The position numbers and the translations under genes are program-made. Below the pieces are notes generated by a model that did not search any database, was not told the DNA's origin, and was given only the letters and a program-made list of their open reading frames with translations. A stretch of 64,000 nucleotides of DNA from Cymbomonas tetramitiformis (taxonomy: Eukaryota; Chlorophyta; Pyramimonadophyceae; Pyramimonadales; Pyramimonadaceae): NCBI GenBank assembly GCA_001247695.2, contig LGRX02027051.1, positions 19,584-83,583 on the forward strand, written 5' to 3'. The stretch's first letter is position 1. Every line of letters starts with the position of its first letter. Shown here piece after piece: positions 23,409 to 59,359 of the stretch.

Positions 23409-26400
23409 TTAAACAAGAGCTTGCTCAGCATCTTCTGTTGTAACACCGTCCATCGCGAACTTGCCCATGCTGAAGGTAAACATACCCACTCCAGAAGCTT
23501 CTCCTCCTCGTAGCATCCTGGCCCGTGTCAGAGGATTCCGAAATACCATGACCCACATACATCTTCTGCCAATAGGCCCATGTTCTAAGTGTCCAATCAC
23601 ATGTAAGCGTCCAGCGTGACACAACTTACGAAAGTATTGTGCCCTGCTCTCTGTCATATCTGTCATGTAGTGCGATGGCACATGAATACAAGCCACCACT
23701 CGGCTGGCCAGCACTGCAAATGGCAACGCAATATCTAACACTGCGAACCAGGGTGAGGTCACCACCGCGTCACACACCCCATACTTTTCCTTCCAGGCGC
23801 GATAATTGCCCGGTTGCAAGGCGTTAAGGGCTTCGTGCCATTTCAGCTGCTGCGGGTTCCAATCATTATTCATAACCTTCAGGTGAGGCCATTCCAGTGA
23901 CATAACCTTGCCAATGACACCTGTGCCAGCCCAGGGATCCCAGACCTGTGTGATCTTCTCCCAAGTCACCTCGTGCGCCAGACGTCTAACCTCCTGGGGA
24001 ACTGTCATCACCAGCTCTAAGCCCCAGTCCAGTTGACTGGCAATTTTCACCTGGGCTCTGCTCAACTGCGTAACATCCCCCCTCTTCTGTACTTCCTCTG
24101 GGCTCATGGCCTGCACCGTGGACGCCTTGCGAAGGCTTCTCGCGCGAGTGTACTGCTCTGCACACTTTCTGCTCAAGATGGTGCGATGGCCCTCATGCCA
24201 GAATCCTGGCATCACGTCTGTTATTACTCTGCTGAGCTCCTCCTGGTTTCCCCAGGCCACTCTGTCAGGGAGATCCCCCATGCTCCCTTCTTTCCTGAGC
24301 ATCTGTCGCGATGTGAGCGCCTGCCATGGGTCTTCACGCCCCGGCTTCACCGCACGATGTGGACCCACGTCTGCAGGCAACAATACCACATCTGAGCCCA
24401 ACTTCTCTCTCAGCTGCAGCTCCATGGCAGCCATCTTCTCTACGATCGACGTACTCACTTCGGCGGCAGCTGCCACCACGGTCCCACCCAAGCACTTGGG
24501 ACATTGCCAATCTCCTTCAGGTACTCCATCCAGCGCTGGATTCAGACACCACGTGTGATAGCCACGGTTACAGGTGTCACACAGCAACATGGCTGCCTCC
24601 CCATCTGTCCTCATGCACACCTCACACGCGAGATGCTTGCTGGGGATGGCTGCACTGCAGTCGTATTGATCTTTCACCTGCAGGTGACATGGTGCGATGT
24701 TCTGCACTGTGCTCTTCTCCCGCAACTTCGTGCTGTCCTCCAACACTACCACCCCATCTCTTTGCACCTTGACTATCTTTAGGATGGCTGGCTTAGTGGC
24801 CACCTCCATGCCAGAGCGCGGTTGTTGTCGTATGTACACGAAGTCGCCTGCCTTGAACTGATGCGGCTTCGGCTCGTAGCTGCCACTCCTCCTGTGCTCG
24901 TATCGCAAGGTGTCGCGGTGCTGGGCGATCTCCAGGTTGCACCCTGCATGTACCATAAGCTTCTTCACGATGGCTGCTCGCTGTAACAAGTCCTCAGCCA
25001 GTGTCTTCTCCTCCTGCTTCCCAAAGTCCAACTCGGGTCGGGCACGAAGATCCGGTGGCACAGTGGCTTCCTGAGCGAACAGCAAGGTGAATGGCGCCAC
25101 TCCAGTCGACTGCTGTTTAGCTGCGTTGTAACTGAGTACTAGTGACCAAAGCATCTCGTCCCACTCGAAGTCCAGGCCCTTGTCGAGGGCCATCTTCTTG
25201 AAGCAAAACTTGAGGGTGCGTACCACCCGTTCAGTCAAGCCATTGCTCTCTGGGGAACTCGGTGAAGTTACTCTCCGGTCAATAAGACACTGCTTGCACA
25301 GGGCGGCGAACTCGCCCTCAAACTCTGTGCCCCCGTCCACAAGGCATTCTGCTGGCGCCCCAAACACGGATAAAACGTGATTGCGAAACGCGCTGGCGAT
25401 GGTGGCGGCCTCCTTGTCAGGGATTGGAACGCACACGACGAACCGCGTGTAGTGCTCAATCATGACCAAGACGCGTTGGTTCCTAGCCTTCGTGATGCGC
25501 TTCGTGGGCCAAGCTAAATCCAGAGACCAGCGGTACATGAAGGACTTGATTTCCAGCGGCGTGAGCATCGCCTCCTCCCGTGCATAGTGCGTCTTCACCC
25601 TCTGGCAAGTCTGACACTGAGTGACCACCGCTCGCACATCCTGTTTCATGCCCACCCAATAATGGCGTTGCCACAACAAGTTCAGTGTTCGCCTGATGCC
25701 CCAATGGCCAGTCCTCTCATGGTGCTCACGCACCAGCTGAATCCTGTCACAGGGCTTGGGCACCAGCAGCTCCTTACCACTGACGGTAACCATGTACAAC
25801 TCGCCCATGAGCTCGTCCCAGCGGTGACGTGCTGCTCTCTTCCTCACTCTGTGGTACTCCTCCTTGGGCACCTCCACTCTTCCTCCGGTCTTGATCCACG
25901 CGAGGCATAGCTCGTCCTCGTGTATGTCGGGGTACTTCTCTCGAAGTGACTCCTGGTTGGTTACACTGGCTAGCATGGCAACCATTCTCGTAGTGTCGGG
26001 CAGCCTAGGCAGCCTCATCTCTTTCTCCTTCGCCACTGGTGCCCATTCTGGAGCTGAGCTTGTCTCTGCTGGCTTGCCCCCAGGTCTTGAAAAGGCCTGC
26101 CGATGGCGCGCCTCATAGCCCGCGAGCTTCATGGAGGCAAGCTTCCACTGTCTGCGACGTGGGACGGCGCCGGCGGTGCCGAGTCCCTGAGTACCTTTCT
26201 GCCCCTGACTGCACATGTGTTGCAGTCGTTCTTCCCAGTCCTGATGGCTAAGGCGTCGCGCGACTTGCTGAGTGTAGTCGTTGGAACTGGTGACCCACTC
26301 TGCTAGTTGTGCTCGCACCGGCTCAGTTGTGTCCTCGGAGGTGGTAGCCACCTTGGTGGACTTCACGATAGGGATGGCCGCTAGCGTGCCATGCTCCTCC

Positions 26401-29400
26401 TCCTCGCTCTCCTCGCTCTTCGGCAGTTTGGTCGTGCTGACCTCGGCAATCGCATACAATAGCTCCATTGCTCTCCGATCCATGGCGAGGCCAAGCACTC
26501 CGGCCAATTCTTCGTCCTTCATGCCGTGCGCCATGCGAAGCTCACTCGCGCTGTACCCCATGGCGACTGCCTTCTCGTCCAGGTTGACCTCTCTGGTCTC
26601 CCCCACTTCATCATCATCTTCTTTCCTCACCACGGTGCCTGCGCGAGGTGCGCGAAAGGCGCGAGAGTTTTGTGTCGCCAAGATGGTTGGCAATACTCTC
26701 ATAGGCTCCCCCACAACGTTAGCGGTGTAGTGAGGCTTCCTGTCTCCAGTGACAACCCTGCGTGGCTTCCAGCCTCGCTGCAAAATATCGCGCACGTATC
26801 TGTCTGGTGGTCTGTCCACCCCCTCCATTACCAGATTGAACTGCTGATTCTGAAACAGATTGCTCCAATATGCTCGTAGACGATGCGCGTATGATCCCGC
26901 GCGCGCCGCGTCGAAGGATACTGGCTGGCCCACCACGCTATTGATGATGGGAAACACGTCCTTCCTGATCTTCGAGTTCTCCCTGTGTGACAACGGAGAA
27001 ACGTTCTCTAGCACATATGATGGCGGTCGCTGAGGCTGCAGCTGCTGCAGCGTAGAGAGGACTCGCACTGCCTGGTAGAACAGTCTGCTGTGCCTGCCCT
27101 CCAAACCAGCCAGCTTGCCAGCTGGTGACAGGTCCTGGCATGGATATCCACACACCATGACCCATTGTTCTCCACTCAATGCCCCTGCATGTACAAGGTC
27201 AATGAGACTGGTGTCTTCGATGTTGCTGGGCAGCTGTCCCAAATGGGCTGCCTCGGCACGAAACAAGTCAGGATGACGGCGGCTGATCGCCATGCACCTG
27301 GCCCTGGCTACCGCCTGGCTGGACTTCGAGATGTCCTGGTAGAGGTACTTGTTGACCTTAACTCCACAGCGCAAGAGCATCTCTAGTCCAGCACACAAGC
27401 CCCCACACGGCTCATAGCAGACCACGCCTTCTTCTCTGGCCTCCCGAAAGAAGCTCTTGTCAATCACTCTCGTGTCGATCTTCTTTGGCACTTTGAGCTT
27501 GCCACCCTCCATGGTCTCGTCGCCGTATATCGCTGGGGAGCCTCCAGAATGCATACCCCTGATTGGCCGGACCTGGCTGAGGGCATCCCAGGCGACTCGT
27601 GTCAACCTGCCCGAGCACCTGGCCACCTCCGGGTGGTCAGTGTCAAACATGACCCCCTTGTTGCACTCCAACTCTTCTTGGTAGTGCACGTCAAACAGTC
27701 GATGGACTGCGCTGGTCCCCAGCTGCTCCCTGACCATGTTCTCGCAGTAGTTGGCCACCTGTGCCTCTGGGCTCACTTCTAGACCAAGTGGTGGCTCCCT
27801 GGTCACTTCCAAGCAGATGATATCTGTGAAGCAACGCGTTAGCCTCTCGGCATGCCCCGCTTCCCTGGCTTGGTCCCCTTCACGGTCCAAGCGGGCACCG
27901 GTCTCGTCTGCGGTGCTGGGCAGCGGGTACCTGGATGGCACATCCGCGTTCTCATTCTTCGGACCTGGTCGGTACTGGACCGTGAACTCAAACTCCTGGA
28001 GGCTGATGGCCCAGCGTAGGTGTTGACCCTGCAGGTCCCCCTTCTCCATGAGTGTTGTGAGCGGCGAATGGTCGGTAATCAGCGTGAAGTGGATCCCGTG
28101 CAGGTACTGTCGTAACGTGCGGATTGCCCACACCACTGCCAGCATCTCACCCTGGAAGCTCGCGTACTGTCTCTCGGTCTTCGACAACGAGCGACTGATC
28201 ACCACGCAGATGTGCTCTACGCCGTTCTCGTCCTTCTGACCCAGCACTGCGCCAATGCCATGGTTACTCCAGTCCGTGTAGAGGAAAATGGGCCTACTAT
28301 AATCGATGGGCTTCAAACATCTCCCCGAACATAGGGCGTCCTTCAATGCCTGCAATGCCTGGTCCTGCTCCTTCCCCCAAGCTTCCTTGACGTCCAACAC
28401 CTCCTTTCTGAGCAAGTCGTTCAGTGGTCGTGCCATCTCTGAGGAGTAGTTGGGTCCCATGGGCTCCCCCACCAAACCTTTGTAGTAGTAGTTCATGAGT
28501 CCAAGGATGGAGCGTACTCCAGTCTTGTCCTCGGGCTTGGGCAACTCTTGGATGGCTTTGCACTTGATGTCCTGCGCACCAATAGTGTTGTAGCCGATGC
28601 GGTAGCCCAAGAAGTCCACAGTGGCTGACCCGAAGGTCGACTTGCCCGAATGCAGGCGTGTCCCTGCATCCCCCCAGGTGCGAAGCACGGCTTCCACATC
28701 CTTGATGTGCTGCTCAGCGGTGTCTGAGTATATGCACACGTCATCGACGTACGCCACCGTGCAATGTTGCAGGTGACGCAACTCGTAGTCCATGATTCTG
28801 ATGAAGGCTGCGGTCGCTCCAGCTGCTCCAAACGGCATGGATGTGTAACGATAAAGCTGGTTGCCCCACCAGAACGCTGTCTTGTCCCTGTCCTCCTCAG
28901 TAGTCATGGGAATCTGGTGGAACGCCTTGGTCGCGTCCAGGGTAGTCTTGCACTTGGCCTTGGCCACGCGCTGGTAGAGCTCTTCTGGACGATGTGGTAG
29001 CGTGTTATCCTTCAGCGACAACCGGTTCGTATTCCGGAGGTCGACGCAGAATCTCGTCGAAGTCCACTGTCCAGTGTCGTGATCCTTCTTCCCCGCGACC
29101 ACCACGTTGCTGGCGTGTCTGCAGTGCTGTGAAGCCGGCTCGATGAAGCCATATTCCAGCAGCTCCTTGCAGTGCAGGTCGATGATCTCCTGCTCCCCTG
29201 GGCTGTATTTCCTCGGTCGCTGGTCGGTTACCTTAGTCTCGTCCTTGAACGGGATGGCGAAGGTCGCATGTGCCGCACCTCCATGGTAGCCTTTGATGTC
29301 CTGCGGCTTGTTGGCGAAGCAATAGCTGCATCTCCTCACCACGTTGCGCATCTCCTCCCAGTTCTCCTCAGTGAACTCGGGATGTCCTCCAAAGGTGGCA

Positions 29401-30611
29401 TTGAGCTCGGTATCCAGCCACGCGGCCTCGTCCTTGGTGACCCTGGTTGTGCCCCCTGGCTGTAACGTGTCCAGCACCGTGTGCGGAAGCACCTCGTCTC
29501 GCTCTGCCACCATAGCCTCCCATCCAGTGTCCCATTGGCGCGAAGACCTCTGGTCCTCCCAGGCGGTCCTGAAAGATCTGGTTAGCGAGCTCGAGCACGA
29601 TCCCACCGCCAGCACGCCCTGAAACTCCCCAGGGGCCACAGCGGCCACCCAAGCAGCCACCACGAGTAACAGCAAAAGTTTCAAAATTCTGCTGGTCCCC
29701 ACTGGTTTGACCGGAGGGTGAAGGGTCAGTATGCAAGTCAGCATCCTCCACCCCCCTTGCATACGGCCCAGGCCTCCTCCCGCAGACACGTAGACCACCA
29801 GCGCCAAGACTGACGCCACATAGACGCAGTGCGCCACCTGGTAGCAAGCGGCTGTGAACCGCAGGCGTTGCAGCCGGGCGGCAAAACGCGGCTTCTGCAT
29901 GCGCCGAGGGACAGCTGCCAGCGTGGCCGGACCCGCTGCCGAGACTCGCTGGGCGATCGCCAGCGCACGGCCCATTCGAGCCCCAAGCGCAGGGAACGCG
30001 CCTCTATCGCAAACCAAGCAGGAGCCTGGCAGCCCATGGTTCATAACGTGGGCGCCAACTACCAAGATGCACCCCAGAGTACCGATCATGTGCGTGAAGT
30101 GCATGGCGAGCATGGCGAGCCCAAACCGTAGCAATGGCACGTACCACAGCCCGCGCTGGACATGGTGGAGCCCGGTTACCTTAAAGGCCCCCACGACCAG
30201 CAGCAGCAGGTGCCTAGCCAGCTCCAACAGCACATGCAGATGCGCCCGATGATGCGCCCATGGCTCGAGCGGCGCGGTATGTATGGCCCACAATGTGCGC
30301 GCCATGGCTCTGCGGGGCACCCCAGTGCGGCATGCCCAGACGGCGACGACCTCACCAAGGCACCTGGATATCTCCATGGCCATCCACACTACCATTACTG
30401 CAAAGTGAGGCAGCTGCGGCCATTGCAAGCGCACGAACACCCCCACGAGCAGGAAGCACACCTGAGTGCGCTTCGCCCACCGTCCATCGGCGGGCTGTGT
30501 GCCCGGCTGTGCGCCGGTGCTGCTTCTCAGTGGCGGGCGCGCCGGGCTGCAGCCGGCCCGGTGCCCCCTTGAAAAGGCCCCAGTGCGCTCTCCCTGCTTC
30601 TCTCCTCCCAA
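23409..30611 (-). CDS. gypsy Pol: membrane segments, RT, RNase H, DNMT3-like MTase, integrase, PHD finger, second MTase-like domain
   Basis: 2,400 residues. Residues 1-340 are rich in hydrophobic segments (for example near 52-75, 130-150 and 315-330). RT covers about 440-680 with FCVDLRN and YVDD (about 620). RNase H is at about 765-870 ([20 protein letters not shown]). A cytosine-C5 methyltransferase follows at about 1060-1260: [13 protein letters not shown] (motif I), GYPCQDLSP (catalytic Cys, about 1154), ENV (about 1201) and [11 protein letters not shown], most like DNMT3. Integrase has an HHCC finger (about 1630-1670) and DDE residues in SLDLAWP, VDGGTEF and [11 protein letters not shown]4HC3 PHD finger sits near 1990-2040. 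The C-terminus has DPWAGTG (about 2225) and TSPWF (about 2286), resembling an amino-methyltransferase fold. Each domain retains its key residues. Confidence 0.9.
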
Positions 30612-31615
30612 CGTTCCTCATAACTTAGGCGCTCATAGGAAGAACGCGGCGCGCTGCTGCCTGCATGTCGACTGCGAGCTGCGCCATGATGCTGGGCCTC
30701 CCTCCTGGGGCTCGGAGATCTCCTCCTGCGCTGGCCAGCCCGTGGCGAGCGCTGCTGCACGGGCCTCACGGTCAGACTCTGCGGGCTCGTCGCAAGATGG
30801 CCTTCTCGTCGGTTGTCGGTGTGCGCAACGCGGCCACTGGATCGCTCCGGGCTGCCGGGCGCTGTGGAGCCCCGGGTCGGCGATGGCACGAGCGAAGTGG
30901 CCTCCTGCTCCGGTGCAGCCGGAGGCATAGCTTCAGTCCGCTGCGTGCAGACTGAATGCGTTGGGGACCTTAGAATGTCGTGGACCGACTGGTGCTCGGA
31001 CCGCTGTGCCATGTTGCACTCTAAGCCCCTGGACCGTGTCCCGCTGAGAGCTTGGCCAGAGCAGTGTTCCCGCGTAGGTGCAGCTCGTGCACCACCACGA
31101 CCATCAAGCCCAGGGCAGTCTGACCCAAGCGTGCTCATCCTTGCAGTCGCGCGAGCAGTGCGAGGTCGCTCTTCATACTCTCTGATGATCTCCTCTGATG
31201 ATCTGATGATCTCCTGGCGCGCCCTCATCGACTCTGTGAGAGCCGCCATGGTGACGTTGTTCGCTGCGACCTCGGCGCGCCCTCGCGCCAAATCAGCAGC
31301 CAATCCAACAAATCTCTCACTGATGACCTCCACGTCCTCATCAGAACTCTCCGTCTGCGGCGACGGCGTTCTTGTGCGACACGTGTGGGTGCCCGCACCC
31401 GCAGCAGCTGCGAGGTCGGGCGAGTGTCTCGAGACGCTGCCATCTTCCTCCTCACTTCCTGCATGGGAATCATCATCCCCCACGATTGGGTCCAAGCACC
31501 GCATGAAGTCGTTGCGCAGGTGCTCGTGTACCTCTGCTCGATGTGCTTCAGCCAGCAACGTAAGGCCTACCAGGGATGTGAACGCTGACAATGGCTCCCG
31601 ATGCATCACGGCCAC
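30527..31615 (-). CDS. Extra ORF of the gypsy element, disordered Ser/Arg-rich protein
   Basis: 362 residues between protease and Pol; it overlaps protease by 10 bp and Pol by 85 bp. I do not recognise the family. The N-terminal third contains acidic patches ([15 protein letters not shown]). A helical, coiled-coil-like stretch sits near residues 100-150 ([26 protein letters not shown]). The C-terminal half is low complexity, rich in Arg, Ser and Pro, with SR-type runs ([11 protein letters not shown]). It is conserved as an open frame in a tightly overlapping operon-like layout, so it is probably expressed. Confidence 0.65.
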
Positions 31616-32826
31616 CTTGTTCCAGGTCTCCCAGCTGCAGCAATCGAACTTACGTGTTCACGTGGAGGTGGAGCGCAGCCTTCAAAGGCGGGGGCAAGAG
31701 TGCGCGCTAGCGTCGCACCGTCGTCGAAGATCTCAGTCGCCAGGCACACCCTGGGGTCTTCGTTCCGCTTGCTCCTCGCATCAACGGGCGGCGTCAGCTC
31801 GATCAACGGCAGCGTGACCTTCTCCCTCATGCCCAGTGACACCGCGGCCTCAGAGGTGGCGATGCCTCGGTAGGGGTCGATGGTCAGCTTGAGTGCGTTC
31901 TTCAGGGGTCCCGTGCCCACCAAGAAATCCCACGTGGTGTCGTTGGTGTATGTGACAAAGGCATGGAGCCGATGCAGAGTCATGTATGGTGTGCCCGCGG
32001 CGAGGACCACATCCACGTAGCAGTACTTGGTGAATTCTGCAGGGCTGCCGTCACATCTGGCCACTCTGGCCCCCGTCTCCGCATCGAAGATGGTCAAGCC
32101 AAGCCTGTTGACTGTTCTGATGGGGATGATGTTGCAATTGGCTCCAGTGTCCAGAAGTAGCGCTTTGTACAACACGAGCAGACCCCCAGAGGCCACCAGA
32201 GCCATCCCTTGTGACAAAGACTCGTTCAGAAGCTTGCATACAGGCTGGACCTGCGCCATGGCGGTGAGCTGCTCTTCCGTAAGGCCACTGAGCATCTTCT
32301 TCTTCAACAGCTCGTATGCTTTGGCCTCCATGGTCCCTGCGTGTAGCTCGCCCCTCTCGCTGAAGTCCTTCACCCCGAAGCTTTCCTGGACAGTGGCCGC
32401 TGCAGCAGTTACGCGCACCGTGGTTCTCCCCTTCCTGGGCTGCTCCACCGTGTCCTCCGGCATCTCGTCCAGAGGAATCTCCTCCTCGTCGCTGTCGTCG
32501 CCAGACTCCATGCCTGGGCAATCGTCATCCTCGTCGCTGTCGTCATCATTGTCTCTGCCGATGCCCTGACAGTCTGCTGCTAAGGCTGCTGGCATGGGGA
32601 GCTGATCGGTCTCAGCTAGCTCCACCAGGGTTTCCACACCCCTGGGAGCTGTTATCCGACCCTCTGCCACGAGTCCAGCAGCTAGTTTACGGAAAGCCGC
32701 TCCTAGACTCTTGATCACAGAAGCCATGAGCTGTACCTTCCTCTGCATCTCGTCCGCCGCAGGCGCCATGGGCACCTGTGCGTCGGCCTCGTACTCTTCA
32801 GGTGTCTTCACTGGGAAGCCCCTCAT
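31606..32826 (-). CDS. gypsy aspartic protease ORF
   Basis: 406 residues. The retropepsin active site is visible as LLLDTGANCNIIP near residue 225, followed by the VDVVLAAGT and WDFLVGTG strands expected of the fold. The protein would cleave Gag and Pol. Its N-terminal half is acidic and unassigned (VEQPRKGRTTVRV preceded by DDDSDEDDD). It overlaps the Gag end by 29 bp in a different frame and the next ORF by 10 bp, so translation coupling or frameshifting is likely. Confidence 0.85.
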   Translation of the reverse strand: MRGFPVKTPEEYEADAQVPMAPAADEMQRKVQLMASVIKSLGAAFRKLAAGLVAEGRITAPRGVETLVELAETDQLPMPAALAADCQGIGRDNDDDSDEDDDCPGMESGDDSDEEEIPLDEMPEDTVEQPRKGRTTVRVTAAAATVQESFGVKDFSERGELHAGTMEAKAYELLKKKMLSGLTEEQLTAMAQVQPVCKLLNESLSQGMALVASGGLLVLYKALLLDTGANCNIIPIRTVNRLGLTIFDAETGARVARCDGSPAEFTKYCYVDVVLAAGTPYMTLHRLHAFVTYTNDTTWDFLVGTGPLKNALKLTIDPYRGIATSEAAVSLGMREKVTLPLIELTPPVDARSKRNEDPRVCLATEIFDDGATLARTLAPAFEGCAPPPREHVSSIAAAGRPGTRWP

Positions 32827-34834
32827 GCGTTGAGTCTTGAGTGCTGCCCAGGGCTACCGCTGGGGCTGCTGTGAGCTCGGACTCTGCACTCTTGCACAGT
32901 GTCTCGGGGAGTGCCCCCAAACCCAAGGTGTCGAGTGCGCTCGAGAGTGCCTCTTCACCCATCTCCTCGGCCATTGCTGAGAGTAAGTCGGTTGGAGAGC
33001 CAGATGGCGCTCCTGCTCCTGCGCTGCCACGGTGGTACACATGTGTGTCGGCGATGTACGTCTCCCTCTCCGCGACGCGCGCTGCGACTGGCTCCTCGTC
33101 GGAGCCCTCGTCCTCGGACAGTACCTGCGATTTCACACTGCCCGCACGGCTGGCAGTCTTCCGGGCAGCCACCATGCCCTGGTACTCAGCCTTCAACGCT
33201 TCAGGGTTGCCAGTGGCGCCCTTCTGCTTGTCCTCTGGTGTCTGCTTGGCTCGGTACTTGTCTTTCTCGTCGTTAGGCAGCTGCTGCCAGTCCGTCACCA
33301 GGATGCCCCAGTCGGAGCTCTTGAAGCGGTTCTTCAAGTTGTACATGCGCAGGGCGGCATTCTCCGCGTCCCACCACTTGCTGGAACCAAGTCTGCTCTC
33401 GTGGAACCCGGCAGGCATCTTGACGTGTTTGTAGCCGCTCCTGCACTGCTCAGGATCGGACTCATGCCAGCCCCCTCCAAAGCAGCGTAAGCACTTGGGC
33501 TTGTCGTTCGTACGAGTGCCCTCCGCTGGCGGCGGCGTCTTGTTGTAGGAGGTCTTCTTGGTTCTTTCGGCAACGTTCACCTCCTTCTTCATCTTCTTGG
33601 AAGGCGGTGTCTCCGCCTTCTTGCTGCTCTCTAGCTCGCCTGGCTGCCCTTCCCCAGCGGACTCAATCTTCTTGATCGAGTTCTTTATCGCCTTGAGGTC
33701 GAGGCCATGTTGACGAGCCTCCCAGGTAGAGTACTGGCAGCCACACCGCCTGGTAATCTCCTGAAGGAAGGTGAGGATCCAAGACTCCGCGTCGCCCTTG
33801 AGCTTGTCCTGAACCTCGATGATGGACTCCAGGTCCTTCCAGGTCACCCGATTGGGTGGCGGGAACTGTGCCCTCAGCTGCTCCTTCACCCGTGTCTGGA
33901 AGACCTTGATGCGCAGGTTTTCTACGCAGTCCTCGATGAAGGTGCGCAGCTCCTCGTCGCTCAGCACCTTCCCAGTGTTGAGCTGCATCTCCCTGCGTTG
34001 ACACATCTTCATGTATGTTAGCCCATCCTGCCCCACCTCCTGCGGCTTCTGTGTCAACAGATCCACTTTCTCTTGCGTTCCCTTCATCATAAACTTCTTG
34101 TCAAGGGCAGCGATAAAACCCCTGAGCGCGTAGAAGTACTGCGTGTCACGGGTGCCATCATGTCCCGTCAAGCCTTTCAGCGAAGTTCCATCAGTCAGAT
34201 AGTCGTTGGAAACCTCCCCTTGGGCGTCTTGGTTCGTCACTGGCCTCGCTATCACCCACGTGGTACCAGCATTCATTTCGTTAAAGGGGGGCCTAGCACA
34301 CGGGATGGTACCCTCGAGTGGGCCATGTTCACTAGTGTCTTTGAGGACTCGGTCCATGTTGGAGGCCACTACACCCCCTTTCTCATAATTCTCACGCCAC
34401 CAGCTGAGAGTTTGCGAATTCTCGCCAGCCAGACATGCAGGGATGATATCCCACAGATACTCAAAGTCAGGAGGTGTCTCTCTCAGGGTCTTGATCTGCG
34501 CATCGGTGAGCGTGCCAGCCGCGGACCTGAGCCTCCTTCTGACGTTGGCGTTGTGCTGCCGCACAAAATTCTCGCACATGTCGGCGAACTCCCTCAGAAA
34601 CTTGGGACGGTCTTCCTCCTTGGTGCCCGTGTAGATGGGCAGCGTACCAAGGTTGATGCGCGCGGAGTCAGTGTACTCCATTTCCTCCTCGAATATCACC
34701 AACGGCTCTTGGGCTTGGACCTGAGGTTGCACTGGTGCTTGGGCTTGGACCTGAGGTTGCACTGGTGCTTGGACCTCAGGCTGGCCTCTGGCAGCCCCTT
34801 CTTCTTCTTCCAGCTCTGTGAAGTGCTGGCTCAC
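32798..34834 (-). CDS. gypsy Gag
   Basis: 678 residues. The N-terminus has a duplicated PQVQAQAPVQ-type repeat. The capsid-like middle (residues about 55-380) has LPIYTGTKEEDRPKFLREF, matched by the broken Gag at 35,484-36,380. A zinc-knuckle-like C..C...H...C motif (CLRCFGGGWHESDPEQC) lies near residue 447, followed by a second charged domain. It is first in the chain of overlapping ORFs and so is the likely major translation product. Confidence 0.85.
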   Translation of the reverse strand: MSQHFTELEEEEGAARGQPEVQAPVQPQVQAQAPVQPQVQAQEPLVIFEEEMEYTDSARINLGTLPIYTGTKEEDRPKFLREFADMCENFVRQHNANVRRRLRSAAGTLTDAQIKTLRETPPDFEYLWDIIPACLAGENSQTLSWWRENYEKGGVVASNMDRVLKDTSEHGPLEGTIPCARPPFNEMNAGTTWVIARPVTNQDAQGEVSNDYLTDGTSLKGLTGHDGTRDTQYFYALRGFIAALDKKFMMKGTQEKVDLLTQKPQEVGQDGLTYMKMCQRREMQLNTGKVLSDEELRTFIEDCVENLRIKVFQTRVKEQLRAQFPPPNRVTWKDLESIIEVQDKLKGDAESWILTFLQEITRRCGCQYSTWEARQHGLDLKAIKNSIKKIESAGEGQPGELESSKKAETPPSKKMKKEVNVAERTKKTSYNKTPPPAEGTRTNDKPKCLRCFGGGWHESDPEQCRSGYKHVKMPAGFHESRLGSSKWWDAENAALRMYNLKNRFKSSDWGILVTDWQQLPNDEKDKYRAKQTPEDKQKGATGNPEALKAEYQGMVAARKTASRAGSVKSQVLSEDEGSDEEPVAARVAERETYIADTHVYHRGSAGAGAPSGSPTDLLSAMAEEMGEEALSSALDTLGLGALPETLCKSAESELTAAPAVALGSTQDSTHEGLPSEDT

Positions 34835-34899
34835 CCGTATCGCTCTCTGGGTACGCCTCTCTGCCCTTTGCTGTTTCTGACGGTCAGTGCTGGATTCCG

Positions 34900-36760: not shown

Positions 36761-36791
36761 GAACCATCTTATATTGCAAGACTTTTGAAAA

Positions 36792-43885: not shown

Positions 43886-43889
43886 TATA

Positions 43890-45449: not shown

Positions 45450-45452
45450 CTA

Positions 45453-46631: not shown

Positions 46632-46695
46632 ACTTAGGTCTTGTGGGAAAGGTGTGAAACTGTCTTTCTAGTGTTTATTGGTAGAAAGATCAAAA

Positions 46696-48122: not shown

Positions 48123-48310
48123 TTAAAATATGTCTCGGTCCGTGCTGGGTTTACTAAGTACAGTCTTAAGTTCTCAAGGTGACTTGTAGTTTTACCGACA
48201 GAAAGGGTAGCATAATGATTCGGGAATAGAAAAGTGCAAAATGGGGAATAGAAATTTCAATCTGTTTTTGGGGAATAGGTTTGTGACACATGCATATGCG
48301 TCTAAAATTT

Positions 48311-48785: not shown

Positions 48786-49603
48786 TTCTACGCGAGTTCC
48801 TGACCACGATACCGAGTGTGCAGGCAATTCTGCTCAAATTAGAATGGGTTGGAAGCAAGATCCGTTCGGAATCTAGGATGCTTGACGGTTCTTGTGAGGG
48901 GGGTAATCATGGGCGTGATTCGAGCCAACTCGACTCACGCCCAACAGGGACGCATCCTGCACAACATGAACATATCACGCATATCATATAAGCATAATAA
49001 ACACATACTGACCGTTTGGCAGTGCAATTTCACCTCTAGCGGAAACGCGGATGTCAACCGCGTCCACGTTTCCGCTAGGCGTTTCTTCCCTCATTCGCGC
49101 GCTCGTTTGCAAGAGAGCCTGGGCAACGGATGAGGGAAGCGTTAGCAAAAATAGTATTTCGTATGCGTTGTTTTCCCTAAACAAATTGCACAAACTGAAC
49201 GGTCAACCACACATCTCGTTGTGGGATGACGCGTTCATTTGGCGGAAGCGGACCGTGGAATTTAAGGAATTTGAAACCCGCAATAGTTGCGCTATGGGGT
49301 TTCATCTTCTTTGAAGCGAAACGGGTACCCACATCATACTAAGTAGGAATATGTGATAATATTTTGAAGCAAAAGATTACTCAGATTAGTATTCAATCTT
49401 AGAGATCTTTATTTCGCTGGACAGGGGCACACTCCCGGAGAGAAAGCCTTCCGCCTTTAGTTAAAATTGCATATTTAACAAATCAAACAGTGAGTATTTT
49501 CTTTAAGTATTTTCAGACGGTAATACTTAAACACTGGTAATACTTAAACACTGAGTGTTGTCTCGCGTGTTGTCACCATGCCTTAGAAACTCACCATCTC
49601 ACT

Positions 49604-50155
49604 CCCAAAGTGACCAAAAACCGTTCGATCGCCGATCGTTCGGTTTTTGGTCACTTTGGGAACGCGTCTGAAAATACTCAGTGTTGTCTCGCGTGTTGTC
49701 ACCAAGCCTAAACTCGCGATCTTACTCCCAAAGTGACCAAAAACCGTTCGATCGCCGATCGTTCGGTTTTTGGTCACTTTGGGAACACGTCTGAAAATAC
49801 TCAGTGTTGTCTCGCGTGTTGTCACCAAGCCTAAACTCACGATCTTACTCCCAAAGTGACCAAAAACCGTTCGATCGCCGATCGTTCGGTTTTTGGTCAC
49901 TTTGGGAACACGTCTGAAAATACTCAGTGTTGTTTCGCGTGTTGTCACCAAGCCTAAACTCGCGATCTTACTCCCAAAGTGACCAAAAACCGTTCGATCG
50001 CCGATCGTTCGGTTTTTGGTCACTTTGGGAACACGTCTGAAAATACTCAGTGGTTTCGCGTGTTGTCACCAAGCCTAAACTCACGATCACTCCCAAAGTG
50101 ACCAAAAACCGTTCGATCGCCGATCGTTCGGTTTTTGGTCACTTTGGGAACACGT
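49604..50155. repeat. Five tandem 60-bp palindromes at 123-bp spacing
   Basis: Palindromes start at 49,604, 49,727, 49,850, 49,973 and 50,092. Each has 20-bp arms (CCCAAAGTGACCAAAAACCG and its complement) around a CGATCG-containing centre. The roughly 63-bp linkers are nearly identical too. Because 123 is divisible by three, frames stay open through the array and create long but probably meaningless ORFs. Confidence 0.9.
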
Positions 50156-50248
50156 CTGAAAATACCTGGAGAAAATACCAGACAGGTCTTTGCAACCAAG
50201 CCGACTTCAGTTCTCACATAAACGTACTGTACGGTTTACGCCCTCCCG

Positions 50249-52764: not shown

Positions 52765-53335
52765 TAGCTTATCCCAAACCGATGCTGCTCAAACTTTGTA
52801 TGCGTATTCAAAGTGAGTTGAATAAAACGTGAGAACAAGGTGGGTCCGATGTGGTTGGGTGTGATCCCAAGCTAGGTTGCCCTAGACTTCCACCCCTCAA
52901 GAAAGCGCGCCCCTCCTCGCCATCGGAAAATCTGCGACACAAGCTGCACAAAACGAGTATCGTGAGTCGGCACATATGCATAAACAAACTGAAAAATAAA
53001 AGCAGTCAAACACTTCCGAAATCCCTGCGCATAACACAGCAGCCACGACATCGTTCCGCCCATGAGGCGAAGCGAAGGACCGTTGAGAAAATTATGAGCA
53101 GTGAATGTTGGTGCGCAGCTCTTTATCCTTGAGCGAGTCAACGCCAACGGCAATCGTATCCGCGATATCGATGGAAGATAAATAGATGATATGTTTTAAT
53201 AATCCTGGAAATTAAATTCACGATGACACGCGAGACGATGCGAGACGATATGACCGTCACGCTGGTTCAGAATTTTTCCAGGAATGAGACGGAAACCACG
53301 TTCCAGTTCCAGCGCGTCATATTCCCTTCGCTTTT
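52765..53335 (-). repeat. Dispersed repeat, copy B (inverted relative to copy A)
   Basis: Reverse complement of 9,530-10,233, lacking its 122-bp insertion. Differences are scattered single bases and small indels. Confidence 0.8.
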
Positions 53336-53527
53336 TACGATGTAGGCGATCATACGATGCGAAACAGAAATATGAAACGTGATGCGAAATAACTGAAGTG
53401 CGAAGGGACATGCGGAGTAACTGAAGTGCGACATGCGAAACGTGATAAGTCAAGAGAAGCTAAGAACTGAAGTGCGAAACGTGATGCGAAACTAAGAACT
53501 GAAAATGCGGAAGGGACTTACCTTAAA

Positions 53528-54195: not shown

Positions 54196-54460
54196 GGTAC
54201 TTTTACGAAAAGAATGATACAATGATATGATATATCTAAACAACTGTGACGTGCGAAAGCAGGGATCGATGATACCTGTTGACGGCTGCAACGTTTATTC
54301 AGGGGCTGCATTTTATTCAGGGTCTTTAAATTAATTACTGTTCATATCATCGCACGTTCTGCCAAGTGTACTGAATTGATTGTATCAGATATTTGTGACA
54401 ATTTCCTGCCAGCTGTCTCGAAAGCACTGGCAACTTCGGCTCAATGTAACGATCGACTTT

Positions 54461-54790
54461 CAAAAAAGTGTATGACGTTCTTATATAAACTGGTCATAGT
54501 CTTTTTTACGTTACCTGGCTTCAAAAAAGACTATGACGTTTTTATATAAACTGGTCATAGTCTTTTCTACGTTACCTGGCTTCAAAAAAGACTATGACAT
54601 TTTTATATAAACTGGTCATAGTCTTTTCTACGTTACCTGGCTTCAAAAAAGACTATGACATTTTTATATAAACTGGTCATAGTCTTTTCTACGTTACCTT
54701 GCTTCAAAAAAGACTATGACATTTTTATATAAACTGGTCATAGTCTTTTTAGCGGGTCATGCCTTTAAAAAAGACTATGACGCGTTTATA
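54461..54790. repeat. 60-bp hairpin-forming tandem repeat, six copies
   Basis: Each unit carries AAAAGACTATGAC and its inverse GTCATAGTCTTTT around TTTTTATATAAACTG, then a TACGTTACCTGGCTTC linker. Units begin near 54,461 and every 60 bp to 54,761. It lies directly upstream of the virus-like genes and could be a viral origin or structural repeat, but no function is shown. Confidence 0.85.
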
Positions 54791-55093
54791 CGCGAAATTC
54801 ACTGGAACTCTATGACGTAATAACTTCGAAAGCGTTCCTGCGTCCGAGGAGCATTTGAAATTATACACAGATTCCGCACAGACCTTTGATATTATTTGAT
54901 CGCCCCGTTACCGACTGAATTAATGTAGAATGTACTTCGTACTAAGACACTGTAGTGTCATCTTGATCGTAAATTGAAAACTGTTTTTCGCTAAGTATTT
55001 CCCTGGGAATAGAGATAGAGAAAATTAAAAAGAACTTTTACCAGTTATTTCTTTGTTTTCATTTAAGAAATAAATATAAGTATATATATTAAT
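54791..55093 (+). promoter_or_regulatory. AT-rich leader with TATA-like motif before the first viral ORF
   Basis: No gene in 54,791-55,093. The last 20 bp (ATAAGTATATATATTA before the ATG at 55,094) share AAGTATATATA with the sequence just before the primase ATG (55,362-55,376) and AAGTATAATATATA before the fibre ATG (61,281-61,293). A shared element at this distance suggests a viral promoter class. Confidence 0.5.
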
Positions 55094-55376: not shown

Positions 55377-55904
55377 ATGGATTTCGCAAACATTGATAAG
55401 AGTAAGCATGCTATTGTTAATTATCTCGGTCTCAAATGGATCAAGAATATTTCCAAAATGTATGGTGCTCAAGATTATGTCTTGTCTACCATAAAAAATG
55501 AAGAAATTTCAATAAAAGCTGAAAATCCAAATCATCAATCATCTCTTTGGACAAAAGTGAATGATCAAGAATTATCGAAATTATTAGAAAGTAATCACGG
55601 TATCAATGAAGTAATACAATCACATGTAAAACGAAAAGTGTTCTTTGATATTGATGGGAAGGAAGAAATAGATCTAAACGTATTGAAAACAACTATTCTC
55701 GATAAATTCCCAAATGCCAATATGCAAATTAGCGGCTCAACTTTACCGAAAAAAGGAGTACCAAATTGGTCATATCATATTACCTTATCAAATTACTACT
55801 TCAAGAATTTGAATGATATGGCACCGTTTAGAACATGGACATCAGTTGTCAAACACATCGATAATTCTATTTACACATCAAATAGAAGCTGGCTGGGACC
55901 CTGA
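55377..55904 (+). CDS. Virus-type archaeo-eukaryotic primase, N-terminal part, truncated by a retroelement
   Basis: 175 codons; the native part probably ends near residue 170, where the Penelope-like element begins. KVFFDID (residue about 86) is the metal-binding hhhDhD motif of AEP/PrimPol primases, and WSYHITLSNYYF (about 132) supplies the conserved His strand. NANMQISGSTL between them fits the same fold. In large DNA viruses this domain is usually fused to a D5-type helicase; that half is not found anywhere in the window. The last residues (SWLGP) come from inserted DNA. Confidence 0.75.
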   Translation: MDFANIDKSKHAIVNYLGLKWIKNISKMYGAQDYVLSTIKNEEISIKAENPNHQSSLWTKVNDQELSKLLESNHGINEVIQSHVKRKVFFDIDGKEEIDLNVLKTTILDKFPNANMQISGSTLPKKGVPNWSYHITLSNYYFKNLNDMAPFRTWTSVVKHIDNSIYTSNRSWLGP

Positions 55905-55945
55905 AGAATGTTATTACGACACTGCGGAGGAGAAGAGCGAGACTG

Positions 55946-58147
55946 GTGGTGGAGAAGCTCGTTGTCGTACGTGGTGATCACTGGGCCAGAACAGTGGTCA
56001 GAAGACTCAGATCGAGCCCTGGCGAAGTGGCAGCACTTTACTCTTTTACCCTGGCTCAGCTGGTGAGAGTATTCGAGGCAATCAGAGGCAACACCGAGTG
56101 GAAGTTGCGCGCCAAGATGAGAAGGTGGGTGTCGACAGCGGCAATCAAGGTGCACGGCTTCCCCTTAAGGGGGATGTATCCTTTCTTCCTACCACCTGCC
56201 GATGTTTGGCAGACATACAATCTGAAGTGGCTGACCAGCGACATAGTTCGGACACTACGGGTGGACAAGGTGGTCGGGGATTTCGTGCGGCGGAGGACGA
56301 TGGTGGTGCAACGAGCCGGGGTAAAACTGAACAACCTCTTCTGCAACTTCAGAGAGATCGCTGCCAGAACCTCTGCACCCCCCTGCCTATGTGACACCCA
56401 CTCACCGAACCTGCCCAGAGTGAATGGACATATCTGTGCGCGGACTACTGAGCTGCATACTGCCCCCTTGTCTATTCTGAACAACAGCCTCAAAGACACA
56501 CCCAACTACGAAATCAAACCTATCGAGGCGGTCAAGTCCGCCTGCCTGGACTTTGCAGAGATCTTTACACAGGCGGGACGACGTGTCAACGAAGCTGAGG
56601 TGATGGGGGCGCTCCCGCACAGAATGACTAAGGCGGGTGAGGTGTATATGATTATCCACCGTGTGCAGGCGGGTGATGCAGCACTGGAACGCTGGGTGGA
56701 ACTGCGGAAGAGGGATGCTCTCGTTATGAGAGTGAGATGGGAACGTTGGTGCTGGCTTCTGCTGAGGCTGCTATGTTGCTGGGACGAGGAGCGCGGCTTA
56801 TACGAGCTGATGGAAAAGGTGGCAGAGCGTATGCTCTTCTGGGTGGAGAGAATCACCCGTGACTATTGGATCGTGCGGTACCCAGACCAGAACGTGGTGA
56901 GAGATGTCTTCGGGCTCAAGGATGAGCTGTTCGGTACGCCTTTCGACATAAACGTCAACACCGTTGCTTTCTTTACTCCGTACAAGGATGACGAGGTGTT
57001 TGGAGCCCAAGAAGATGCTCATAGCGCTTTGTGGCACACTATGGCGTTGGGGAACCCGATCTACACGATGGAGAAGCTCACACAAGCAGCGACACACGCA
57101 GTACGATCTGCTGAGACCAGCAACAAACCGGTGAGAATCCTGCTTATTTTTCCAGCCTGGGCAGAGTGGACGGAACTCCGGGGTGTCCACAGAGTGATGC
57201 AGCTCGCAGCACATAAGTTTAAATTCCTGGCGCCTCAATCAGCACTCGGGTACGCTGACCGCTCAACGGGGGCACGCTTCAATGTGGACGTTCTGATTGT
57301 CCAGAACCAGGCGGCAGCACGACTCGTCCCAGTTCCTCTGCCAGCACTTGGTAGGCTGAGGAAGCAGTTCAAGGGCAGACTATCTATCTCTCCCTCCTAC
57401 GAGTCGAACTGGTGTGTTAATTTCGCTGGAAAACCGGTGGCTGGTGACCCCAAACCTTTTCCAATGCGTTTGAGAAAACTTGCTACACGGCTGAGAGGGG
57501 GTGTGGCTCTAAGGATTGAGCAGAGCCGCCTGGTGGAGAGGTGGTGTGCTGGAGAGCAACTACCAGGAGGAGCCTGCCGCTACAGCGGCCCAGCAGTCTG
57601 TGCACGACAGTATATGAGAATGATCGACAGAGAGTGTGCGGGAACAGCTCGTATGATGCTGGACCGTAACGGGGGTGTGGGCGGTATTATCTGCCAACGC
57701 CGCTATTATGAGATGCTTGAGTCGGAGAGGGACTCCAGTGCAGCCCAGTTTGTGGTCAGTGATGATGCTCTGGAAGTAGTGGTGAAGAAGCTATGGCTAC
57801 GGTATAGACAGCTTGGCCTCCAGACGATCACGAAGTTCGACAGCAGGGGACAGTATGGTTTTATGTATGCCCTGCTGAAGGACAAGGACCCTGAGCTGAA
57901 GAAATGCAGACCTATTCAGCCGAACAGACTGGCCCCTCTGGCGAAGATGCAGAACATACTGGGCAGAGGTATAGAGTTCCTGGTGTCCGCGATCGGCCTC
58001 TCCTTCACGTGTGGTGGCACACACAAAGCTCTGGAATGGGTTGCAGAGTTTAATGAAACTGCTACTGGTGCTCTCGGGGTCTATGGCTATGCTTTCGACG
58101 TGAAGGAGAAAAAGAAAAAGAAAAAACCACGCCCGTCGGGCGTATGA
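55946..58147 (+). CDS. Penelope-like element protein, N-terminal part with methyltransferase-like domain
   Basis: 733 codons. A CxC...GH block (CLCDTHSPNLPRVNGHICAR, about residue 150) precedes the unusual domain at about 320-480: LFGTPFDINVN, then FGAQEDAH, then GNPIYTMEKL (about 370), then ILLIFPAWAEWTEL and VDVLIVQN. The order and spacing match the PCIF1-type N6-adenine methyltransferase fold, with NPIY in the place of NPPF. RT block 1 begins near 650 (CRPIQPNRLAPLAKMQNI). The frame is broken within RT block A after AFDVKE by an insertion that adds a Lys run and a stop. Before it, the protein continued into the next ORF. Confidence 0.8.
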   Translation: MVEKLVVVRGDHWARTVVRRLRSSPGEVAALYSFTLAQLVRVFEAIRGNTEWKLRAKMRRWVSTAAIKVHGFPLRGMYPFFLPPADVWQTYNLKWLTSDIVRTLRVDKVVGDFVRRRTMVVQRAGVKLNNLFCNFREIAARTSAPPCLCDTHSPNLPRVNGHICARTTELHTAPLSILNNSLKDTPNYEIKPIEAVKSACLDFAEIFTQAGRRVNEAEVMGALPHRMTKAGEVYMIIHRVQAGDAALERWVELRKRDALVMRVRWERWCWLLLRLLCCWDEERGLYELMEKVAERMLFWVERITRDYWIVRYPDQNVVRDVFGLKDELFGTPFDINVNTVAFFTPYKDDEVFGAQEDAHSALWHTMALGNPIYTMEKLTQAATHAVRSAETSNKPVRILLIFPAWAEWTELRGVHRVMQLAAHKFKFLAPQSALGYADRSTGARFNVDVLIVQNQAAARLVPVPLPALGRLRKQFKGRLSISPSYESNWCVNFAGKPVAGDPKPFPMRLRKLATRLRGGVALRIEQSRLVERWCAGEQLPGGACRYSGPAVCARQYMRMIDRECAGTARMMLDRNGGVGGIICQRRYYEMLESERDSSAAQFVVSDDALEVVVKKLWLRYRQLGLQTITKFDSRGQYGFMYALLKDKDPELKKCRPIQPNRLAPLAKMQNILGRGIEFLVSAIGLSFTCGGTHKALEWVAEFNETATGALGVYGYAFDVKEKKKKKKPRPSGV

Positions 58148-58196
58148 GTAAATTAATTTCCCCGGCCCTACTCTGGGCCTGTTTCGACGTGAAGGA
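58093..58196 (-). mobile_element. 74-bp SINE-like insertion with 15-bp target duplication
   Basis: TTTCGACGTGAAGGA occurs at 58,093-58,107 and 58,182-58,196; the 74 bp between include a CGCCCG-TC-GGGCG hairpin and, on the minus strand, a T-rich tail (TTTTTTC followed by two TTTTTC). A 15-bp duplication plus such a tail points to LINE-mediated retroposition. Removing 89 bp rejoins the two halves of RT block A in frame (FDVKDQF). Confidence 0.8.
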
Positions 58197-59109
58197 CCAG
58201 TTCTCTAATGTCGAGCACCCCGTGGCCGAGAGAGCAATCTCGAGGACTGTGGAGGAGGCCAGGCAACTGAGCGGATGCACCGGTTCCCTCCTGATCAACA
58301 GAAGAGGCAGCCGAGGAGTCCAATGGTGGGTGAAGGGACTCCCGAAGAGAACGGCAGTTCGTGTACCGTTACGGAAACTTTCCACTGGGCTTATTCTTTC
58401 TCTGACCAACAACTTCGTATGGATCGCCGGACAGCTGGTGCGACAAACCAGAGGTGCAGGAATGGGTGGCTCTGACAGCCCTGCCACCGCTCTCTGTGTA
58501 TGTGCTTATGGGGAGAGAGAATTCCACCGCTCGGCCAACTGTGATGCTAACTTTATTATGTTTGTGAGACAAGCTGATGACTGCCTTGCTCTTCTTGCAG
58601 TGTTCAGCTCAGCACACAGGGAATGGCGACGCTCTCGGAGGAGATTGAGGGAGTACAGGGACTCCTGCTATGTGGAGGGGATGCGAGTCCTCCTGACAGG
58701 AGTAGCGGGCAGCGATGCTGATTTGCCCGACAGCCTTGAGTGGTGCGGAATGACAGTGAACTTTGCTGGCAGCAGGGTGACACTCCGGCAATTGTTACAG
58801 AATGAAAAGAGAGGTTGCCGGCTTCTCTCCGATCCGAGACGGGCTTTCCCACTTGTCAGCTGGTTCTCTGCATGCCCTGAAAGTAGAAAGGCAGTCACAG
58901 CTATCTCATATTTACACAGATTTACTCAGCACTGCAGCTCCTCTGCCCTGATCATAGAATGTATTCTGCAGCTCAAGATCGAGTTCACCAGGCAGCACTA
59001 TCCGATCGGCTGGCTCAGCAGAGCTCTCAGATGGATGGCTAACAGCTTTCCCCTTGACTTCTGGGGTATACTCTGGAACGAGATGGACAAGCTCGGAGTG
59101 GTCCTATAA
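58144..59109 (+). CDS. Penelope-like element reverse transcriptase, C-terminal part
   Basis: 321 codons; the annotated ATG lies in the small insertion, so the native frame really starts at 58,182 in block A (FDVKDQFSNV). Block B is QTRGAGMGGSDSP (about 58,450), and block C is FVRQADDCLALL (about 58,560), in which the usual Tyr before Asp-Asp is replaced by Ala. Block D-like LEWCGMTVNFAG follows. The C-terminal thumb is hydrophobic and basic. Joined to the preceding ORF it would make a protein of about 1,025 residues. Catalytic Asp residues are all present. Confidence 0.8.
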   Translation: MSKLISPALLWACFDVKDQFSNVEHPVAERAISRTVEEARQLSGCTGSLLINRRGSRGVQWWVKGLPKRTAVRVPLRKLSTGLILSLTNNFVWIAGQLVRQTRGAGMGGSDSPATALCVCAYGEREFHRSANCDANFIMFVRQADDCLALLAVFSSAHREWRRSRRRLREYRDSCYVEGMRVLLTGVAGSDADLPDSLEWCGMTVNFAGSRVTLRQLLQNEKRGCRLLSDPRRAFPLVSWFSACPESRKAVTAISYLHRFTQHCSSSALIIECILQLKIEFTRQHYPIGWLSRALRWMANSFPLDFWGILWNEMDKLGVVL

Positions 59110-59317
59110 TCTCTGACTGCCTGGGGCACTTGAGTTACCAAGTGTCCGGGCAGCATATACCTGATGGACTTCTGTACTGGACTCCCACACTTCACGCAGC
59201 TCCGCGCTCTGGGGGGCCCTCTGTTTGCTCAGCTTGCTTTCTTTGACTCTGGCAGTATGACATGTGACATTCACTTTTTTAGGACTTAAGGCGACGGTGC
59301 CTCATTGTTTCAGAAAA
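59110..59317 (+). other. 3' untranslated region of the Penelope-like element
   Basis: No ORF. Contains CACTTGAGTTACCAAGTGTC, an imperfect hairpin at 59,125-59,146, and leads directly into the ribozyme. Confidence 0.55.
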
Positions 59318-59359
59318 CCCACTGAAGAGTAGCCCGGCAGGGCACGAAACCGGTCTGGG
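59318..59359 (+). ncRNA. Minimal type I hammerhead ribozyme
   Basis: Self-cleaving RNA. Stem I pairs CCCA (59,318-59,321) with UGGG (59,356-59,359). The core CUGAAGA (59,322-59,328) has the required C3, U4, G5, A6, G8 and A9. Stem II is GU-A-GCCC / GGGC-AC around a GGCA loop, with one bulged A. GAA (59,346-59,348) follows, then a 2-bp stem III (A-U, C-G) with a CG loop. The cleavage triplet GUC ends at 59,355. All invariant residues are present. The very short stem III is typical of ribozymes in Penelope-like elements, where they process terminal-repeat RNA. Confidence 0.88.

Follow-up and report, generated by a model that had tools for sequence, protein, structure and literature searches.

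The stretch of DNA analysed here, referred to as the window, comprises 64,000 nucleotides (nt) of contig LGRX02027051.1 (positions 19,584 to 83,583, forward strand; GenBank assembly GCA_001247695.2), deposited under the green alga Cymbomonas tetramitiformis, and holds copies of three retroelements, namely a Ty3/gypsy retrotransposon, a long interspersed nuclear element (LINE) and a Penelope-like element (PLE). A sequence-only reading of this DNA had proposed that each of the three carries a methyltransferase-like domain, and this observation as a whole mostly holds: the coordinates and motifs given for the domains proved right when the three frames were re-read, and the occurrence of different methyltransferase families, at different positions, in unrelated element classes is supported for the gypsy element (two domains) and the PLE and is likely for the LINE. 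As to provenance, there are 21 protein relatives of the PLE and of the gypsy C-terminus, and the 17 that carry an organism name are all (17/17) from C. tetramitiformis. The genome that we searched amounts to 851.7 Mb in 25,745 contigs; the published long-read genome is given as 914.3 Mb in 35,945 scaffolds with 68% interspersed repeats (PMC10675990), and a term search of the available main text of that paper finds no word starting with 'methyl'.

So could the motif letters sustain such a claim by themselves? Of 1000 shuffled versions of each frame, 203 (gypsy), 387 (LINE) and 90 (PLE) contain the loose pattern [DNS]P[PILW][FYW], and four-letter motifs were accordingly rejected as stand-alone evidence. 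Thus, the case for methyltransferases has to rest on homology, selection and fold.

Domains of the three retroelements

The features of the gypsy element are as follows.

23409 to 30617, minus strand: Ty3/gypsy Pol, a single frame of 2402 amino acids (aa) with reverse transcriptase (RT), RNase H, DNA methyltransferase (DNMT), integrase, PHD finger and a predicted C-terminal methyltransferase
28596 to 29009, minus strand: RT, residues 537-674 (PF00078, E 1.2e-20)
27990 to 28379, minus strand: RNase H, residues 747-876 (PF17917, 6.4e-32; PF17919, 3.7e-29)
26358 to 27590, minus strand: DNMT3-like cytosine-C5 methyltransferase piece, residues 1010-1420 (PF00145 DNA_methylase, 3.9e-9; Pfam core 26955-27170)
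25251 to 25748, minus strand: integrase zinc-binding and core domains, residues 1624-1789 (PF17921, 4.2e-16; PF00665, 2e-7, slightly below cut-off)
24492 to 24626, minus strand: PHD finger, residues 1998-2042 (PF00628, 1.3e-10)
23457 to 24104, minus strand: a further methyltransferase domain at the C-terminus, class I as judged from its predicted fold (DPWAGTG ... TSPWF)
32798 to 34927, minus strand: gag-like frame (residues 18-712 of P0013 match 32837-34918 at 90%)
31606 to 32853, minus strand: frame with a weak aspartyl protease match (PF13650, 0.0013, below cut-off)
23151 to 23374, no strand: 224-nt direct repeat at the gypsy 3' end, copy 1
22542 to 22765, no strand: the same repeat, copy 2 (99.6% to 23151-23374)

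The DNMT3-like enzyme that had been proposed for this Pol is borne out. Pfam places PF00145 between RNase H and integrase, inside the Pol frame; among 30 matches to Protein Data Bank (PDB) sequences, 29 are DNMT3A/B/C (best 3.2e-5), which makes DNMT3 the nearest solved family, and the catalytic motifs are conserved (PCQ at residue 1159, ENV at residue 1204, and RxRxYW as AHRLRAYW). Ten Pol homologs all retain the PHD finger pattern, and [PE]CQD is found in seven of them, SPW[FY] in seven, and both in six. Given that two of these homologs, P0021 and P0022, are only 37-39% identical in the DNMT, both methyltransferase-like domains have probably been kept together for a long time. In both of these distant relatives the catalytic cysteine lies in ECQ rather than PCQ.

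The second domain, with DPWAGTG at residue 2227 and TSPWF from residue 2287, was approached through its fold. An AlphaFold2 model (predicted local distance difference test, pLDDT, 63; predicted template modelling score, pTM, 0.67) retrieves 15 PDB rows at E<=1e-3 with Foldseek, eight of which are titled methyltransferase; the other seven (GidB, BchU twice and Rv0187 four times) are methyltransferases as well. The sequence-only reading had itself allowed that the SPWF region might lack a Rossmann methyltransferase fold, and the outcome went against that refutation, the domain being predicted by its model to be a class I methyltransferase. The nearest structures include N6-adenine DNA enzymes and METTL5, with PacII, HsdM-type subunits and M.TaqI scoring as high as METTL5. 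Motif IV in the form NPP[FYW] is absent, its place being taken by TSPWF in the window and ISPWY in P0022. A PDB sequence search with the C-terminal profile gave no match. Pfam searches of eight C-terminal rows gave a weak MethyltransfD12 match (0.013) in a single row, and PGA_cap at 0.013 in two of the eight, likewise weak, is taken as chance. A link of this domain to Dam was rejected, the profile comparison being matched by 85 of 100 shuffles.

The Penelope-like element comprises the following.

55887 to 59498, plus strand: PLE copy, 5'-truncated at 55887, with a broken RT frame (99.3-99.6% to genome copy L002)
56894 to 57244, plus strand: PCIF1-like methyltransferase domain, NPIY at 57053-57064 (PF12237, 0.0014; family members to 9.2e-7)
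58057 to 59109, plus strand: RT part with the RQADD motif (no Pfam match in this frame; RVT_1 0.0071 in relative L027)
58093 to 58195, plus strand: 75-nt insertion (58107-58181) between 14-nt direct repeats, breaking the RT frame
60742 to 61276, plus strand: internal 535-nt fragment of another PLE copy (99.25% to 57041-57575)

The 75-nt insertion begins A-rich. The pair 57041-57575 and 60742-61276 was considered as terminal repeats of the PLE and dropped, the second being an internal fragment.

The PCIF1-like context that had been read around NPIY is supported by profile evidence. NPIY is residue 390 of the plus-strand frame 55886-58147 and lies within the PF12237 (PCIF1) match; this family is matched at E<=1 in seven of 12 PLE family members, the window copy included, and is listed as a precomputed domain in four of 11 relatives. 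Elsewhere in the genome the element persists as full-length open frames of about 1327-1367 aa: of 2040 candidate places 60 were scored, and 57 of these have no internal stop. Six intact frames match PF12237 at E<=1 in five cases (best 1.4e-6). The motif NP[I/L]Y is present in all 28 fetched copies, including that of the window (NPIY in 20, NPLY in eight), none of which has the NPPF of PCIF1 in the domain, and in NP[I/L]YT the residues N, P, Y and T do not vary across the ten rows of alignment A5. The PCIF1-like domain reaches 29.0 against a Dam profile built from ten pieces of this genome, a score equalled by none of 100 shuffles, and NPIY falls on NPPY. PDB sequence searches with PLE profiles A1 and A5 found no methyltransferase and gave weak matches only, such as a group II intron RT at 0.081. 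With respect to the rest of the protein, RQADD, an RT motif of the xxDD type, is found in 26 of 28 copies, and the RVT_1 match of L027, below cut-off, is the only one among the six intact frames; PF01541 (GIY-YIG) is matched weakly, below cut-off, in the N-terminal region of two of the six (0.016 and 0.034), and YVGK occurs in 25 of the 28 copies, the GIY-YIG region being missing from the truncated window copy.

The LINE is represented by the following features.

36766 to 48156, minus strand: LINE copy with two insertions of about 1 kb and about 200 nt missing (pieces 89.5-96.6% to the 3128-aa open-frame copy L055)
40836 to 41624, minus strand: RT (PF00078, 2e-19)
45455 to 46384, minus strand: AP-endonuclease-like frame (PF03372, 0.019, below cut-off)
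37365 to 37889, minus strand: C-terminal NPPF module, likely a Dam-related methyltransferase, NPPF at 37662-37673

The insertions (41777-42830 and 43904-44908) are each about 1 kb long, with 23-nt end repeats that are 91-96% alike, and a LINE frame at 46696-47703 resembles a Ulp1/C48 protease by eye, with no Pfam match. The open copy L055 has an AP-endonuclease-like part (TIGR00195 exoDNase III, 2.2e-6, below cut-off) and an RT (6.8e-22), followed by RNase H-like and CCHC-like stretches recognized by eye and then the C-terminal module. Among 86 places scored out of 5350 candidates, two have an internal stop; with P0001, 42 places were scored, 39 of which match it at 55% and the others at 72, 89 and 99%, the 99% match spanning residues 1-747. 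NPPF, which is residue 1382 of the window LINE frame, is kept in the ten best-scoring copies (10/10), that of the window included. A profile of four module sequences scores 25.2 against Dam, with none of 160 column shuffles as high (maximum 21.4) and NPPF falling on the NPPY/F motif of Dam; with two sequences the margin is thin (23.2 against a maximum of 22.9 in 100 shuffles). A link of the module to the PCIF1-like profile was rejected (18.4; 11 of 160 shuffles as high), and none of the uncut profile comparisons among LINE, PLE, gypsy C-terminus and Dam exceeded a probability of 5.3%.

Selection was estimated, for the window families, on the Penelope-like and LINE modules, as the ratio of nonsynonymous to synonymous change (pN/pS). 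In ten LINE copies this ratio is 0.065 in the module, 0.086 before it and 0.106 behind it, so that the NPPF module is under strong purifying selection. In the PLE (27 copies with frames above 1250 aa, in six subfamilies, 20 chosen by place and seven coming from the search, nearly all of them open frames), pN/pS is 0.04-0.21 in the methyltransferase and 0.06-0.15 in the RT, and 0.06-0.63 in the endonuclease region.

Dam and C5-like domains in other elements of the genome

Methyltransferase-type domains in this genome are not confined to the families of the window. The Dam family PF05869 was scored at 150 of 7257 candidate places and exceeds the cut-off in all 150, whereas among 14 control genomes it is matched in E. 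coli only. Ten of the Dam frames were scanned for further domains. In the gypsy Pols L035 and L037, Dam (4.2e-13 and 7.9e-13) lies between RNase H and integrase, and L036 is alike (5.8e-13), its piece beginning behind RNase H. Two DIRS-type frames, L031 and L032, combine RT and Dam, with weak RNase H matches (the recombinase was not sought); the remaining five have no RT within the piece at hand. In the DIRS-like elements the pN/pS of Dam is 0.16 (11 of 36 pairs, the more distant ones left out; ungapped windows). For the gypsy Dam, six aligned pairs with L040, a piece that has an upstream stop, yield 0.30-0.31, and the other 15 gypsy Dam pairs, with at most nine changes each, give 0 to 1.22 or no value. 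An estimate of 0.865 for the gypsy Dam (15 of 21 pairs) was rejected, its windows being unaligned across an indel.

One gypsy frame, L044 (2374 aa; L044:879-8000), the only one followed to its end, appears to combine both chemistries in the order protease, RT, RNase H, Dam, integrase, SH3, chromodomain and a C5 methyltransferase-like domain. The latter has the motifs FSGTGS, SPPC and LENP and matches PF00145 (4.6e-4, cut piece) and NCBIfam dcm (0.0089), both below cut-off; a PDB search with the L044 C-terminus found no match. Judged from its predicted domains, this single frame appears to mirror the layout of the window gypsy element with the chemistries swapped.

Separate acquisition of the methyltransferases, as had been proposed for the elements of the window, is supported by the fact that both the domain families and their slots differ. 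A tblastn scan of viral contigs for the gypsy C-terminus, the PLE and the LINE module found no relative encoded there.

Known systems and the possible role of the domains

How new are these fusions? The sequence-only reading had held that several methyltransferase families across element classes were not described, and this stands in part. Retrotransposon DNMTs are known in LINE, DIRS and gypsy elements (PMC5890265, PMC6338049), Dam in DIRS elements has been published (as cited in the same two papers), retrotransposon DNMTs are capable of de novo CG methylation (PMC5890265), and algal DNA transposons with ParB-methyltransferase genes have been published (PMC12477816). Among the entries listed in our literature searches, which left many journals uncovered, we found no PCIF1-like domain in a PLE, no gypsy element with two methyltransferases and no LINE with a Dam-type tail.

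KnitGypsy-Dnmt3 of Klebsormidium nitens (de Mendoza et al. 2018, PMC5890265) is likewise a Ty3/gypsy Pol with a fused DNMT3-type enzyme whose catalytic residues are conserved, and the 3' direct repeats of the window element (22542-22765 and 23151-23374) recall the DIRS-like repeat arrangement reported in that study, although no 5' partner was found for them; the window element differs in its second, unrelated C-terminal methyltransferase-like domain behind the PHD finger and in its host, a prasinophyte-grade alga. SymbioLINE-Dnmt and SymbioDIRS-Dnmt3 of Symbiodinium (PMC5890265) offer a parallel of two element classes in one genome, one of them a LINE, but those enzymes are of the C5 type and in the LINE lie upstream of the RT frame, whereas the module of the window LINE is C-terminal, NPPF-type and at best Dam-like. 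DIRS elements with a Dam-like N6-adenine methyltransferase (PMC5890265, PMC6338049) share Dam within a polyprotein and look like L031 and L032; unlike these, the present genome has Dam also in gypsy Pols, in the slot between RNase H and integrase, one of these Pols having a C5-type domain as well, and probably in a LINE. DNA transposons of algae that bear a gene for ParB plus an N4C/N6A methyltransferase, Sola1 among them (PMC12477816), are alike in that a self-encoded enzyme is proposed to mark the element, but there it is a separate gene of a DNA transposon and here a domain of a retroelement polyprotein.

The PLE domain shares with PCIF1 a profile match, weak in the window copy, and an aromatic NPxY-type site; it differs in belonging to one protein with an RT and a probable GIY-YIG endonuclease, in having NP[I/L]Y rather than NPPF, and in that Pfam reports no WW domain at E<=1 in the six intact frames. 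Craig and colleagues are reported to have described, in 2021, Chlamys-type Penelope-like elements with an N-terminal GIY-YIG; these elements share with the window family the likely N-terminal GIY-YIG and the C-terminal RT in one frame, but not the PCIF1-like methyltransferase between the two. The Chlamys-type group is named in PMC12477816.

With DNMT3-like and PCIF1-like domains matched in defined slots and retained in related elements, and with the PLE and LINE modules under purifying selection, what might these elements gain from them? We regard it as reasonably probable that retrotransposons of a green alga, likely Cymbomonas, carry a DNMT3-like domain and one of predicted Rossmann fold (gypsy), a PCIF1-like domain (PLE) and a likely Dam-related domain (LINE), and likely use them to methylate their own new copies. 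An enzyme made within the polyprotein would stay with the replication complex of the element and could methylate either the fresh cDNA, in gypsy and LINE, or, with the PCIF1-like enzyme, the RNA or cDNA of the element. A new copy would then arrive already marked; the mark might either let it pass for host DNA or bring it under a tolerated, quiet silencing in which the element can persist. The PHD finger, or the chromodomain in the second gypsy lineage, might steer integration to chosen chromatin, and the different element lineages would have arrived at this arrangement by separate captures. Fusion to the polyprotein would keep the enzyme within the machinery that synthesizes and integrates the cDNA. 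Marking of that cDNA in cis would be its simplest use.

Several observations weigh against self-marking by active enzymes of these families. The SPWF model yields low TM-scores in Foldseek (0.25-0.34, by query length), and NPIY/NPLY and SPWF all depart from the catalytic NPPF/NPPY, so that activity is not assured. The PF12237 match of the window copy is under the curated cut-off and so are those of all five matching intact PLE frames, the sixth, L025, being without a match. Behind the PLE methyltransferase pN/pS ranges from 0.08 to 1.28, the latter in one subfamily, and, since the copies used for pN/pS, PLE and LINE alike, come from mostly open frames, the values lean low. For the LINE, the module has no Pfam methyltransferase match at E<=1, PF05869 included (window LINE and P0001), its structure model, built from two sequences, is unusable (pLDDT 39.7), the score against Dam is modest (hhalign probability 6.7%), and with uncut alignments 12 columns only are aligned.

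These last points bear on whether the LINE tail is a methyltransferase at all. That it is an unrelated conserved domain is the alternative that survives best, although we consider it doubtful: NCBIfam, PHROGs and PDB sequence profiles are without a match, as is Pfam, no motif I is seen, and neither the structure model nor the PCIF1-like profile provides a link. Against this stands the Dam alignment, which spans the domain with NPPF in register and is equalled by no column shuffle. The methyltransferase claim made for the LINE has thus kept its NPPF, its purifying selection and its Dam alignment and has gained neither a Pfam family nor a usable model, and a Dam-related methyltransferase, on the profile evidence, is likely and not shown.

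PCIF1 is a cap-specific N6-adenosine methyltransferase that methylates the cap-adjacent adenosine of host mRNA, and for the PCIF1-like domain the RNA of the element is a real alternative target. The wider proposal, that the domains act on element RNA, with the PCIF1-like enzyme methylating the cap-adjacent adenosine of the PLE transcript to the benefit of its stability or translation and the gypsy C-terminus, as a METTL5-like counterpart of that rRNA m6A (N6-methyladenosine) enzyme, acting likewise, seems to us unlikely. The likeness to METTL5 is offset by the equally high scores of the DNA adenine enzymes PacII, HsdM-type subunits and M.TaqI, the families to which the DNMT3-like and Dam domains belong act on DNA, and the WW domain was missing from the Pfam results for the intact PLE frames.

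Even less probable is that the captured folds are structural leftovers, kept as non-catalytic modules by which the polyprotein binds nucleic acid. The altered motifs of the PLE and the gypsy C-terminus, and ECQ in the two distant Pols, would fit such a role; the invariant residues of NP[I/L]YT, the intact Cys, ENV and RxRxYW motifs of the window DNMT and the strong purifying selection seen both in the LINE module and in that of the PLE speak against it. Finally, enzymes aimed at competitors or serving defence on the side of the host, marking or silencing DNA viruses and other elements, would suit a genome in which endogenous viruses are numerous (PMC10675990) and a PLE copy that adjoins virus-like frames (partly recognized by eye), and the idea has been published for retrotransposon methylases in general (PMC6338049), but we think this very improbable given that fusion to replication proteins favours action in cis over action in trans.

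A broader form of the self-marking hypothesis can be put forward tentatively. At least five retroelement lineages (the DNMT gypsy, the Dam chromovirus, the Dam DIRS-like element, the PCIF1 PLE and the Dam-type LINE) would each have captured methyltransferases, from at least four families, and two gypsy lineages would each have come to pair a C5 with an N6 enzyme, the two slots being the same and their occupants swapped, as if double marking of the own copy had been selected. Such pairing would suggest that both marks are needed. Provided that the domains are active, this one alga supplies parallel natural experiments on retrotransposons that write 5-methylcytosine (5mC) and N6-methyladenine (6mA), or m6A on RNA, and it becomes testable whether self-marking aids the persistence of new copies and whether 6mA is a real, functional mark of eukaryotic DNA. 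A PCIF1-like enzyme in a PLE would, furthermore, tie an RNA-cap enzyme family to a retroelement.

Other features of the window

No tRNAs and no Rfam families at gathering score were found in the window. A diverged gag-like fragment lies at 35541-36375 on the plus strand, with 41-50% identity to P0013. Frames at 60115-62349 are perhaps the remains of an endogenous virus: they include one that by eye resembles a viral packaging ATPase, for which Pfam offers no suitable family, and a protein that matches a Chlorovirus glycoprotein repeat at 1.1e-4, below cut-off. At 10994-20123 there is a Copia element whose 334-nt long terminal repeats are 99.7% identical and which is flanked by a 5-nt target duplication, TTTAC; these two features identify it as a recent insertion. 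Inverted copies at 9522-10231 and 52768-53344 lie about 42 kb apart, with a longest stretch of 434 nt at 97.7%, and tandem repeats occupy 49464-50165 (unit 123 nt), 54398-54851 (61 nt) and 63084-63595 (64 nt).

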